Part shown: positions 21,779 to 29,120 of the stretch, one piece after another
Position numbering within the stretch: the first letter of the stretch is position 1
Layout: every line of letters begins with the position of its first letter
Source of the DNA: Hymenobacter norwichensis DSM 15439
GTDB lineage: Bacteria; Bacteroidota; Bacteroidia; Cytophagales; Hymenobacteraceae
Direction of reading: 5' to 3'
NCBI RefSeq assembly: GCF_000420705.1
Contig: NZ_ATVL01000007.1
Location: 930,001-994,000, forward strand
DNA: 64,000 bases
The notes under the pieces: generated by a model
Told to the model about the DNA's origin: nothing
What the model saw: only the letters and a program-made list of their open reading frames with translations
The model's database searches: none
Made by a program: the position numbers and the translations under genes

Positions 21779-21794
21779 GAACCCAAACGTGGCG

Positions 21795-21802
21795 TATCTT
21801 TG
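21795..21802 (+). promoter_or_regulatory. -7 promoter box for the NeuD-like gene
   Basis: TATCTTTG is an exact TAnnTTTG match. It lies downstream of the earliest possible ATG (21789), so it supports translation from ATG 21846. Confidence 0.5.
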
Positions 21803-21845
21803 CGGTCTAACTCGCGCTGTACTTTACAGTCTCTCTTCGCTACGC

Positions 21846-22478
21846 ATGGAAAACCCCGTTATAATTCTTGGTGCTCAAACCGTGGGTATTACTGCCCTTG
21901 ATTCTTTCCTTTCCAACGAGGTAGTGGTGTATTGCCTTCTCGACGACGATACCAAGCTGCAAAACACTGAGCTCTTCGACGTGCCCGTAATGGGTAACAC
22001 CGACGATAAAGAGCTGCTCAAGCTGCTGGGCAAAAAGTGCGAAGTATTCGTGGCCACCGAAGACGTGGCCAGCCGCCGCAGCCTCACGGCCATGCTCCAC
22101 GACGAATACGAGGTAGCCCCCGTCAACGCTATCCACCAGCGGGCTAGCGTGTCGCCGCATGCTTGGCTGGGCCACGGCAACTTGCTGAGCGCCAACGCTG
22201 TGGTAGCCGGTACTGCCAAAATTGGGAACGGCTGCCTGATTGGGGCCAACGCTGTAGTAGATGCCAAAGCCGAAATGGGCGACTATTCGCAGCTCAGCGC
22301 TGGCGCAATCCTCAACGCTGGTGTAGTGGTAGGCGAGCAAGTGTTTATTGGAGCTGGCGCGGTAGTAGTAGCTGGCGTGAAAATTGGCAACAAAGCCCGT
22401 ATTGGCGCTGGTTCGGTGGTCGTGGCCGACGTGCCTGCCAACCAAACGGTGTTCGGCAACCCTGCCGTAAAGGTTTAA
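21846..22478 (+). CDS. NeuD-like acyltransferase with hexapeptide repeats
   Basis: A 210-residue protein. Residues 1-90 form a Rossmann-like PglD/NeuD N-terminal domain (VIILGAQTVGITALDSF). Residues ~95-210 form a left-handed beta-helix of hexapeptide repeats (IGNGCLIGANAVVDAKAEMG, VFIGAGAVVVAGVKIG) ending NQTVFGNPAVKV, the standard end of O- or N-acetyltransferases that use acetyl-CoA on sugars. The expected catalytic His is not obvious at the usual place, where the sequence reads GDYSQLSAGAIL instead of the usual His-containing turn, so activity is doubtful. The gene stands alone. Confidence 0.75.
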   Translation: MENPVIILGAQTVGITALDSFLSNEVVVYCLLDDDTKLQNTELFDVPVMGNTDDKELLKLLGKKCEVFVATEDVASRRSLTAMLHDEYEVAPVNAIHQRASVSPHAWLGHGNLLSANAVVAGTAKIGNGCLIGANAVVDAKAEMGDYSQLSAGAILNAGVVVGEQVFIGAGAVVVAGVKIGNKARIGAGSVVVADVPANQTVFGNPAVKV

Positions 22479-26658: not shown

Positions 26659-26831
26659 CTGAATCACAGAATATGCAGATTACACGGATTTTGTAGCCCA
26701 TTATCCGTTCTTAGGCCGCGTTACCACATAAAACAGAAAGAGGCTTGCTACTTGCAAGCCTCTTTCTGTTTTTAATAGTCTACAAAATCCATGTAATCCG
26801 ACTAATCTGCATAATCCGTGATTCCGAATCA
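26659..26831. repeat. Word-repeat palindrome enclosing a terminator
   Basis: The left arm (26659-26696, with GAATCACAG, ATGCAGATTA and CACGGATTTTGTA) pairs imperfectly with the right arm (26780-26831). The right arm has extra ATCCG words. The two arms enclose about 80 bases that contain a conventional terminator. The right arm includes the TGA stop of the convergent amidotransferase gene. Confidence 0.7.
26730..26772. terminator. Bidirectional terminator inside the palindrome
   Basis: A perfect 19 bp stem (AAAACAGAAAGAGGCTTGC at 26730-26748, partner at 26754-26772) with T runs on both strands. It separates the convergent ferredoxin and amidotransferase genes. Confidence 0.85.
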
Positions 26832-27992
26832 GGTGCCGCAGTTGAAGTACTTGTCGTAGGCCGACTCCGGAATTAGATTGAGCTGGCTAAGTACTTTGAT
26901 GGGCCAGCGCAGCTTCCGGATCAGAGCGTAATTGTTAGGGTAGTCGCGGAAGGTTTTCGGTGGGGCTTTCACAATCTGCTCGAACTCTTCGCGCGTCAAT
27001 CCTAGGCGCTTGATGCACAGGTTGATGACTTTCTCGTCTTCGATGCCATTGATGTGCTTCACCTTTTCCAGCGCCGCTTCGCGGGGCATTTGGCCGGAGC
27101 GCACCAGGGCCGAGTAGTTGAACAGCCGCCGGTCGATGTTGAACTTGGTGCGGTTGAGGTAGTAAATAACGCTCTGGTACAGGTCGTCGAAATAGTGCGC
27201 GCCGGGGTTCACCCAGGCCAGTTCCCGCTCCAGCAACTGGTCGACATCGGCCCTCACGTAATCCACGTGGTAGAGCAGCGTAACGGTTTTGATGCGGCGC
27301 ACGAAAGCGTAGTAGAACATCTGCGGGATGTCGAGGTGGAAGCCAGGGTCGTCGGCTTTCCAAGGGCGCAGCGGTACTGTGCCAAAACGTTTGTGCACTG
27401 CCTTCAAATACTTGCCATCCAGGTAGTTCCAAGTGAGCGGTGCAATGCCCTCCGTCCGGAACGACTGCCCGATGATGATGCGCTGAATACCTTCCTTAGC
27501 CGCTACGCCATACAGCGCCGTGGCAATACCCACGTCGGTGCCTTCCTCCATATCTGGGGTTGAGGCTTTCAGGAAGGCAATTTTCAGATCTTTGGATTCG
27601 CGCCAGTCCGAGGTAATGGTGCGCATTTCCACGCCCAGTTTCTGGCAGGCTTTCACCATGTTCTCGCCGGCCACGGGATTGCCAAAACCGTCGTTGAAGT
27701 GCACCGCCAAGGGCCGCAGCCCCAGTTTCACCACGCAGTACCACAGCGTAAACGACGAGTCCCGGCCGCCGCTGACGCCCAGCACGCAGTCGTACTTTTT
27801 GCCGCGGCCCATTCGTTTGATATCGGCTGCAATTTCTTGAACTTTCAGACGACCTGCCTCTCCCAGCGGGAAGGCATCATCCATGTGGTTGTGTACTTCA
27901 CAAAAATTGCACTCTCCCTTGGTATCGAACGTAATGCCAGGAACAGTGGTGTCCATGATGCAACGGGTGCAGCGTTGGTAAGCTTTAGTCAT
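26829..27992 (-). CDS. N-acetyl sugar amidotransferase (WbpG/PseA-like PP-loop ATPase)
   Basis: A 387-residue PP-loop ATPase of the WbpG/PseA/LegG type, which activates a sugar carboxamide and adds ammonia to give an amidine. The zinc-binding cysteines are Cys8/Cys11 (CTRC) and Cys28/Cys31 (CNFC), and the PP-loop SGGRDS is at 74-79. Family members normally receive ammonia from a HisH/HisF-like pair; none is present here. Instead a nitrilase-family amidase is encoded 78 bp upstream on the same strand. ATG 27992 is preferred to TTG 28004. The stop codon lies inside the palindrome's arm. Confidence 0.85.
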   Translation of the reverse strand: MTKAYQRCTRCIMDTTVPGITFDTKGECNFCEVHNHMDDAFPLGEAGRLKVQEIAADIKRMGRGKKYDCVLGVSGGRDSSFTLWYCVVKLGLRPLAVHFNDGFGNPVAGENMVKACQKLGVEMRTITSDWRESKDLKIAFLKASTPDMEEGTDVGIATALYGVAAKEGIQRIIIGQSFRTEGIAPLTWNYLDGKYLKAVHKRFGTVPLRPWKADDPGFHLDIPQMFYYAFVRRIKTVTLLYHVDYVRADVDQLLERELAWVNPGAHYFDDLYQSVIYYLNRTKFNIDRRLFNYSALVRSGQMPREAALEKVKHINGIEDEKVINLCIKRLGLTREEFEQIVKAPPKTFRDYPNNYALIRKLRWPIKVLSQLNLIPESAYDKYFNCGT

Positions 27993-28070
27993 GCAGAAAC
28001 GCAACAGGGTATCGGCAAGAGCACGAGCCCTGTAAGTAAACGAGAATGGAAAAAGAAAGAGGTTTCCTCT

Positions 28071-29021
28071 TTAGGAAGGCAAGGAGTCGAACTTGAAGCC
28101 CTTACGGACGAGCATCTCACCAATTTGCGTGCCCTTCTCAACGCGGTTGGGCCGGGGAATGTCCACTACCACTAAGTCGCCGGCAAATTCGTTGAATTTG
28201 CCCTGCGCCCGAATGCCCGAGGCATCTACGGCCAGGGAGCAGCCAATGCTTTTTTTGCCCTCATACGGGCCTCCTACAATGTAGCCTACCGACGTAGTGC
28301 CTACCACGGCTACGTTGTAGAGCCGGGCCAGAATGGAATACGGCTTCACCCACTTTTCGCGGTACGGGTCGTGCTCCTCGGTAATGGAGTAGTCCACGGT
28401 CCAGGAGGAAGGCGACAAAATGAACTCGGCCCCCATACGAGCCAGCGTATGCCCAATGCTCAGGCCATCGATGAAGTTGTCGGCGCAGATATTAACGCCG
28501 ATTTTGCCGAGCGGCGTATCCACCACGTTTAGGGTTTGCCCTACGGCATAGTAGGGTTGTTCTACCGTGAGTAGGTTGATTTTGTGGTACTTGGTGATGA
28601 TTTCGCCTTGCGGATTGATAAGCAGCGCGGCGTTGTACACGCGGCCGTCGGCGCCTCGCTCGGTGAGGCCGGCGCAAATGTAAATTTGGTGCCGGATAGC
28701 TTCCTGGCAAAGTTGGTCGGAGTAGATACCGGGGATGGGCTGGGCTTCGGTGAGGGCGCTGGGGTGCGTCCAGGCGAAGTCGAGGGTTTCGGGTAGTAGC
28801 ACTACGTTGCAGCCCCGGCCGGCGGCTTCGGCAATCATCTGGGCGGCCCGCACCATGTTGCGTTCCGGTTCGCCGCCTTCCACTAGCAGCTGGCCCATGC
28901 CAACCCGCAGAATATCGGTGGTAAAAGAAGCCGCTGGAGTGGCTGGTTGGGAAACAACAGGTGCCTGCATAGGGGCAGGCGGAGAGGGCGCGGCTCTGCG
29001 GAACTTAAACAAGGAAGCCAT
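28071..29021 (-). CDS. Nitrilase-family carbon-nitrogen hydrolase
   Basis: A 316-residue amidase-type enzyme that hydrolyses non-peptide C-N bonds. The catalytic triad is Glu78 (LLPETLDF), Lys147 (KYHKINL) and Cys179 (NICADNF). ATG 29021 is used. The longer frame starts at a TTG (29060) and would add a short hydrophobic stretch; without it the enzyme is cytosolic, with a Pro/Ala-rich N-terminal tail. It is followed by the PP-loop amidotransferase, an order that recalls glutamine-dependent NAD synthetase, where a nitrilase domain feeds ammonia to a PP-loop ATPase. The substrate is unknown. Confidence 0.85.
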   Translation of the reverse strand: MASLFKFRRAAPSPPAPMQAPVVSQPATPAASFTTDILRVGMGQLLVEGGEPERNMVRAAQMIAEAAGRGCNVVLLPETLDFAWTHPSALTEAQPIPGIYSDQLCQEAIRHQIYICAGLTERGADGRVYNAALLINPQGEIITKYHKINLLTVEQPYYAVGQTLNVVDTPLGKIGVNICADNFIDGLSIGHTLARMGAEFILSPSSWTVDYSITEEHDPYREKWVKPYSILARLYNVAVVGTTSVGYIVGGPYEGKKSIGCSLAVDASGIRAQGKFNEFAGDLVVVDIPRPNRVEKGTQIGEMLVRKGFKFDSLPS

Positions 29022-29120
29022 GAGGCAGAAGGAGAGAAAGGCCAAAACTGAGAATTTCAACTATCTATATAAAGATGAAAGCATGTAGCATATAGTCAGT
29101 TAATTGTCAGAAAGGCAAGC

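Follow-up and report, generated by a model that had tools for sequence, protein, structure and literature searches.

A Nitrilase-Superfamily Protein as the Probable Ammonia-Supplying Partner of a WbuX-Type PP-Loop Amidotransferase in Hymenobacter

Introduction

Sugar-modifying PP-loop enzymes of the WbpG/PseA/WbuX group normally draw their ammonia from a class I glutaminase, HisH, acting with a HisF adaptor. The WbuX proteins, also known as N-acetyl sugar amidotransferases (NASATs), are defined in one published account by an SGGxDS motif combined with a CXXC...[GN]XCXXC tetracysteine, which forms a zinc site in the structure 8WEX (PMC10607449). NAD synthetase is built differently: its nitrilase-like glutaminase is assigned to class IV, and separately encoded, clustered "type C" subunits are described (PMC3376133). 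The present report concerns two adjacent genes in a 64,000-nucleotide stretch of the Hymenobacter norwichensis DSM 15439 genome (contig NZ_ATVL01000007.1, positions 930,001 to 994,000; hereafter the window), one encoding a nitrilase-superfamily protein and the other a WbuX-type PP-loop protein. We consider it likely that the two products are subunits of a single amidotransferase, in which the nitrilase supplies ammonia in place of HisH/HisF. This reading is favored because the pairing is conserved, the nitrilase and hisH/hisF exclude one another, the active sites are intact, the nitrilase-partnered PP-loop proteins fall in one clade, and the pair lies within sugar-pathway operons outside Hymenobacter.

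The Gene Pair and Its Products

As an earlier note on this DNA had stated, the nitrilase gene (28071..29021, minus strand) is located directly upstream of the PP-loop gene (26829..27992, minus strand), so that the nitrilase is read first. The nitrilase, which is the proposed ammonia-supplying subunit, comprises 316 amino acids (aa) from the ATG at 29021, and its match to PF00795 (115.8 bits; cut-off 23.2) places it in the nitrilase, or CN hydrolase, superfamily. The PP-loop protein comprises 387 aa from the ATG at 27992, with an in-frame TTG at 28004 as an alternative start. The intergenic stretch between them (27993..28070, minus strand) spans 78 bp from the nitrilase stop to this ATG, or 66 bp to the TTG; in several relatives outside Hymenobacter, the two reading frames overlap or almost touch.

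The PP-loop protein scores 219.8 bits against the WbuX family model TIGR03573 (N-acetyl sugar amidotransferase), above the cut-off of 203.2. Because 11 of the 73 matches of the nitrilase-partnered kind in Hymenobacteraceae score below this value, the clade as a whole straddles the cut-off. Both motifs that define WbuX/NASAT proteins are present. The PP-loop ATP-pyrophosphatase motif SGGRDS (residues 74-79; 27756..27773, minus strand) is identical in 78 of 78 aligned rows, and a CXXC...GXCXXC tetracysteine (Cys8/Cys11 and Cys28/Cys31; 27900..27971, minus strand) is conserved in all 77 rows that cover it. A structural model of the protein (mean predicted local distance difference test score, pLDDT, of 89.8) has as its nearest solved structure, among the matches listed, the Legionella pneumophila NASAT 8wex, with a template modeling (TM) score of 0.62.

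The catalytic triad of the nitrilase is likewise preserved, and the positions given for it in the earlier note are correct when numbered from the ATG at 29021: Glu78 (codon 28788..28790), Lys147 (28581..28583), and Cys179 (28485..28487), all on the minus strand. In a 79-row alignment of the window protein with 78 paired nitrilases, these residues are kept wherever a row covers the position (E in 76/76, K in 76/76, and C in 77/77), and the triad is invariant in a separate alignment of 25 nitrilases. An AlphaFold2 model (mean pLDDT 87.5, with low confidence at residues 24-32) finds its nearest solved folds, among the matches listed, in enzymes of the omega-amidase and amidase types. Comparison with the P. 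horikoshii amidase carrying bound glutaramide gave a Z score of 33.7 and a root-mean-square deviation of 2.7 over 254 residues, and comparison with the glutaminase of M. tuberculosis NAD synthetase gave a Z score of ~29.

The ATG at 29021 is taken as the nitrilase start because an MA(A/S)LFSFRK-type peptide begins at this position in most Hymenobacter relatives, where it is followed by a variable Pro/Ala linker. In the window, this N-terminal segment (28917..29021, minus strand) consists of the basic/aromatic peptide MASLFKFRR and a Pro/Ala-rich linker. Nitrilases from outside Hymenobacter begin at the core, with neither peptide nor linker; the peptide is possibly a membrane or docking tag. 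Export of the nitrilase by means of a signal peptide was considered and rejected: a hydrophobic stretch occurs only in a longer open reading frame (ORF) that starts from a TTG at 29060, and the relatives start at the position of ATG 29021. Because the hydrophobic extension is not conserved, the earlier description of the nitrilase as cytosolic appears reasonable.

Conservation of the Pair across Genomes

The earlier note had proposed a comparison of gene neighborhoods, in which rare adjacency elsewhere would have spoken against the pair; this comparison revealed the two genes to be nearly obligate neighbors within the clade. The nitrilase is encoded directly upstream and on the same strand in 76 of the 80 closest relatives' loci, a proportion that is not an unbiased frequency because these loci were retrieved with the window's own PP-loop protein. 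An even sample of 200 Hymenobacteraceae genomes was therefore examined as well, and it is this sample that is unbiased. With thresholds of E <= 1e-60 for the nitrilase subfamily (72 genomes) and E <= 1e-30 for WbuX homologues (81 genomes), 71 genomes contained both, 1 the nitrilase alone, 10 WbuX alone, and 118 neither (Fisher P 6.7e-42, calculated on related genomes with their kinship ignored). The nitrilase gene adjoins the PP-loop gene, on its upstream side, in 70 of the 72 nitrilase-bearing genomes. In one of the two exceptions (G602), the nitrilase lies at a contig end; in the other (G600, the single genome counted as having the nitrilase alone), a PP-loop gene broken over four frames stands next to an intact nitrilase gene.

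The nitrilase subfamily itself is sharply bounded. A survey of 395 Bacteroidota genomes yielded only two matches above 500 bits, both beside a PP-loop gene, and the next-best scores were 170.6 bits (genome G158) and 86.4 bits. G158 encodes a nitrilase (L200:8385-9221) that is 37% identical to the paired kind, carries a signal-peptide-like N-terminus, and has no PP-loop gene nearby. Second WbuX copies without an adjoining nitrilase were also observed (L225 / G571:C8 and G448:C35), in genomes that hold a complete pair as well. Searches of plasmids with the nitrilase (E <= 1e-30) and of phages with the PP-loop protein (E <= 1e-10) gave no match.

Could the adjacency be a matter of chance or of linkage by descent, without any functional connection? 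Most of the close relatives' loci come from Hymenobacter and have their flanks in common: here, the pair sits between a divergent valS (read by eye) and a ferredoxin-like gene, and these flanks recur in the genus. However, records titled Omnitrophota, Verrucomicrobiota, and Proteobacteria also contain the pair, there between different genes and with frames that overlap or nearly touch. That its surroundings differ in this way, with valS and ferredoxin in Hymenobacter and glycan operons elsewhere, argues against simple inherited linkage. The co-occurrence counts of 71/1/10/118 and the substitution of the nitrilase for hisH/hisF, which it does not join, point in the same direction. Linkage or chance is thus a very improbable explanation.

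A natural fusion of the two genes was sought in the loci and not found. At L087 (~7941), the nitrilase and PP-loop genes are in the same frame, separated by a single TGA codon, and the genome search returned a 703-aa open frame; this candidate was rejected, as the stop codon parts the genes. A second candidate, at L075, was rejected because the nitrilase reading frame is interrupted and the overlapping genes use different frames.

Mutual Exclusion with HisH/HisF

Neither hisH nor hisF was found near the pair in the window, and the arrangement typical of WbpG-HisH-HisF, in which both genes stand beside the PP-loop gene, is thus absent. The strong matches of the genome to PF00977 (HisF/HisA) all lie on another contig (the genome was not searched with PF00117, the class I glutamine amidotransferase, or GATase, family), and the ORFs around them read by eye, from their translations, as a histidine operon with hisB-, hisH-, hisA-, hisF-, and hisIE-like genes. 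The absence of a HisH/HisF partner noted earlier is therefore upheld. Other PP-loop copies with such partners, which would have counted against the idea, do not occur in this genome, as it contains a single WbuX homologue.

The premise that WbpG/PseA-type enzymes normally operate with HisH/HisF also agrees with the wider family, in which the other WbuX relatives mostly have adjacent hisH/hisF genes. In the 10 Hymenobacteraceae genomes with WbuX alone, hisH and hisF were present at 11 of 11 loci examined. Among 152 PP-loop ORFs, 77 were accompanied by the nitrilase, 49 by hisH and/or hisF, and 26 by neither; none had both. These ORFs were drawn from the 80 loci and from 60 Bacteroidota regions, the latter chosen around the stronger WbuX matches in the sample; the classification took in ORFs of 60 bits or more and omitted L091-L120, a duplicate of part of L121-L180. 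Within the 395 Bacteroidota genomes, a WbuX match at E <= 0.001 occurs in 144 and one above the cut-off in 54.

A tree of 99 PP-loop proteins placed all 34 nitrilase-partnered rows in one 38-row branch, with a support of 98 in the Shimodaira-Hasegawa-like approximate likelihood ratio test (SH-aLRT). The remaining four rows of this branch have no partner nearby, and no hisH/hisF row falls within it; its sister branch contains 28 hisH/hisF rows and 5 rows without a partner. The tree was a quick maximum-likelihood reconstruction with SH-aLRT support only, long branches flagged, and midpoint rooting. Rows with fewer than 250 matched residues were dropped, and Hymenobacteraceae were thinned to 12 from L011-L061, L063, L065, L067, L083, and L084, plus L062 and L133. 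As all nitrilase-partnered rows share one branch, a single switch of partner is the simplest reading, the direction of which is not readable from a tree with a midpoint root.

That ammonia modules have been swapped within the WbuX family is further suggested by another WbuX-like clade, the members of which (~610-680 aa) carry a fused N-terminal class II GATase domain (GATase_7). The two members tested (L122:6112-8145 and L073:4674-6692) have this domain and no Asn_synthase match. By length and score, L123, L124, L125, and L126 hold proteins of the same kind.

These data also bear on the possibility that the nitrilase serves the same pathway as an amidase in its own right, trimming the sugar (for example, by taking an N-acyl or carbamoyl group off a polyprenyl-linked sugar, in a place like that of ArnD in the L-Ara4N pathway), while the PP-loop enzyme takes free ammonia. 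Nitrilases are mostly amidases or carbamoylases, and in the operons described below, the nitrilase gene is flanked by an ArnF-like flippase gene on one side and the PP-loop gene on the other. Moreover, an adjacent glutaminase may be dispensable for some WbuX relatives, because 26 of the 152 PP-loop ORFs have neither partner nearby. However, the nitrilase and hisH/hisF are mutually exclusive, as no locus has both, and the nitrilase tracks the PP-loop gene across neighborhoods and almost never occurs without it. We regard this alternative as improbable.

Gene Surroundings and the Putative Sugar Product

Outside Hymenobacteraceae, 23 loci were available, 21 of them with the nitrilase. A gene for a small ArnF/EamA-like membrane protein is located directly upstream of the nitrilase gene in 12 of these loci, and a carbamoyltransferase gene is found downstream of the PP-loop gene in 5. 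The gene that follows the PP-loop gene in L078, L079, L080, L082, and L089, which belong to one branch, encodes a NodU-like carbamoyltransferase of ~537 aa. The fullest operons (L085, L090, and L075) encode, in their first part, a Gfo/Idh/MocA oxidoreductase, a hexapeptide acetyltransferase, a DegT aminotransferase, and a NeuD-type acetyltransferase, and continue with an ArnC/PgfS-like family 2 glycosyltransferase (GT2), an ArnF-like protein, the nitrilase, and the PP-loop protein; a PMT-like GT-C glycosyltransferase is encoded in several loci. Because most neighbor scores fall under equivalog cut-offs, these names are to be read as "like". This applies to the ArnC-, ArnE/F-, and ArnT-like genes, which accompany the pair in relatives outside Hymenobacter and do not adjoin it in the window.

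The first three operon products (oxidoreductase, acetyltransferase, and aminotransferase) resemble WbpB, WbpD, and WbpE, which carry out the 3-amino-sugar steps ahead of WbpG. A Bacteroidota version of the Wbp 3-amino-sugar pathway appears in PMC7468200. The product of the pair is probably an amidino sugar, the main alternative being a uronamide. In the latter case, the pair would act as proposed, with a carboxylate as the acceptor (uronic acid to uronamide, as for WbpS) and no amidino sugar formed. The nitrilase-partnered PP-loop clade is separated from the hisH/hisF-partnered clade by 39 alignment columns; another 22 columns are invariant in both clades. Many of the 39 fall about conserved segments close to the PP-loop core (residues 104-116, 130-135, and 269-274 of the 391-aa ORF). 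Because the clade has signature residues of its own, its acceptor may differ from that of WbpG/PseA. The L075 operon contains a nucleotide-sugar dehydrogenase gene, and Wbp-pathway uronamide sugars are known in Bacteroidota (PMC7468200). On the other hand, the window's PP-loop protein scores above the WbuX cut-off, its nearest solved structure among the matches listed is a NASAT, and WbpS is an AsnB-type protein of a different family (PMC7468200). A uronamide product is, in our view, rather unlikely; as a variant of the two-subunit proposal, it shares part of the confidence placed in that proposal.

Two further features surround the pair in the window. Just past the PP-loop gene (26669-26816), a ~22-base sequence occurs in two inverted copies, where 0 are expected by chance; it is possibly a dispersed intergenic repeat or a terminator. 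A hexapeptide-repeat acetyltransferase-like gene (21789-22478, plus strand) lies ~4.4 kb from the pair, and a relative is similarly placed in several Hymenobacter loci.

Proposed Mechanism and Its Weighing

In the two-subunit proposal, the nitrilase-fold protein would use its Glu-Lys-Cys triad to hydrolyze a small amide and would pass the ammonia to the WbuX-type PP-loop subunit; glutamine, through its gamma-amide, is the most likely substrate. The PP-loop subunit would adenylate, with ATP, the acyl-amide (or carboxylate) oxygen of an activated sugar, and the ammonia nitrogen would then replace the adenylated oxygen, which would provide an envelope glycan with an amidino (or amide) sugar. In this way, a glutaminase of the nitrilase type (class IV) would take over the task that in WbpG/PseA/WbuX falls to HisH, a class I glutaminase, and the adaptor HisF. 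Within this scheme, we infer the use of glutamine by the nitrilase, the direct binding of the two proteins with channeling of ammonia, and the identity of the acceptor group on the sugar.

A more specific version can be offered tentatively, as a conceivable but less secure extension. A nitrilase may have been recruited a second time, independently of NAD synthetase, as a dedicated PP-loop glutaminase that replaced HisH/HisF in one clade. In its fullest form, an Arn-like route would place a 3-amidino sugar on undecaprenyl phosphate, flip it, and attach it on the outer side, so that the envelope would carry a fixed positive charge. On this version, the sugar-amidotransferase family would have three unrelated ammonia modules: HisH/HisF of class I, a fused domain of class II, and the nitrilase of class IV.

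Several findings weigh against these proposals. The other genes of the sugar operon do not adjoin the pair in Hymenobacter, and the window's own genome offers only weak matches to them, the best ArnC-like ones being 34-36% and the best GT-C ones 26% identical. Four of the 80 loci lack the nitrilase: L031 and L037 are second PP-loop copies whose genomes encode the nitrilase at another site, L073 is likewise a second copy, with a nitrilase gene and another PP-loop gene ~3 kb away on the same contig, and for L077 no nitrilase was found in its metagenome-assembled genome (MAG). The 26 PP-loop ORFs with neither partner close by and the 39 columns that set the clade apart also count on this side. 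The loci outside Bacteroidota are MAG or single-cell records, for which mis-binning is possible. Finally, the nitrilase scores 46 bits against PRK13981, where the cut-off is 479, and is by sequence not a glutaminase of the NAD-synthetase type; no YRE loop can be read by eye in the residues after its catalytic Lys, judged by the residue numbering given in PMC6946656.

The nitrilase-free copies in two Hymenobacter genomes mentioned above (L031:1365-4142 and L037:5613-8420) are followed directly by an ArnT/PMT-like glycosyltransferase gene.

Comparison with Known Systems

No paper describing a nitrilase and WbuX pair was found in the open full-text literature, with subscription literature and preprints lying outside that search. 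If the two-subunit proposal is true, the ammonia module of a whole amidotransferase family would be interchangeable, up to and including a switch to the nitrilase fold, and the adaptation of a synthetase to a new glutaminase could be followed in a clean natural test. A concrete function would also be at hand for a nitrilase subfamily otherwise annotated only as "carbon-nitrogen hydrolase", and the pair points to an uncharacterized sugar, possibly cationic, in the envelope of Hymenobacter and of several uncultured groups.

The Arn (L-Ara4N) lipid A pathway resembles the operons outside Hymenobacter, where the pair is accompanied by ArnC-like, ArnF-like, and PMT/ArnT-like genes. These operons differ from it in that no ArnD deformylase was recognized among the annotated neighbors and in that they contain a WbpB/E/D-like set together with the nitrilase/PP-loop pair. 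The Nit2/omega-amidase and PH0642-type amidases are, among the matches listed, the closest relatives of the nitrilase subunit in sequence and structure. They are known as stand-alone enzymes, whereas the window nitrilase is an obligate-looking partner of a PP-loop enzyme.

With the WbpG-HisH2-HisF2, PseA, and WbuX systems (TIGR03573; 8WEX), the window pair shares the PP-loop family, the SGGxDS motif, the tetracysteine, and the fold. It differs in its ammonia partner, which is a nitrilase and not HisH plus HisF, and in forming a clade of its own with signature residues. To our knowledge, the nitrilase fold is otherwise known as an ammonia-supplying module only from NAD synthetase, the parallel drawn in the earlier note. 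That parallel stands as regards architecture: a nitrilase-fold subunit is encoded beside a PP-loop ATP pyrophosphatase, as in NAD synthetases with a separate ("type C") glutaminase, which are a real precedent, and the folds match with a Z score of ~29. It does not extend to sequence, in which the window nitrilase is not close to the NadE glutaminase. Membership in the NAD-synthetase glutaminases was ruled out on this ground, given the PRK13981 score and a set of 37 PDB sequence matches that includes no NAD synthetase. Nor is the PP-loop partner NadE. The pair thus has the general make-up of a class IV glutamine amidotransferase, a nitrilase-fold subunit with a PP-loop amidating subunit, without close homology to the NAD-synthetase glutaminase, and the window nitrilase reads as a recruitment independent of NAD synthetase.

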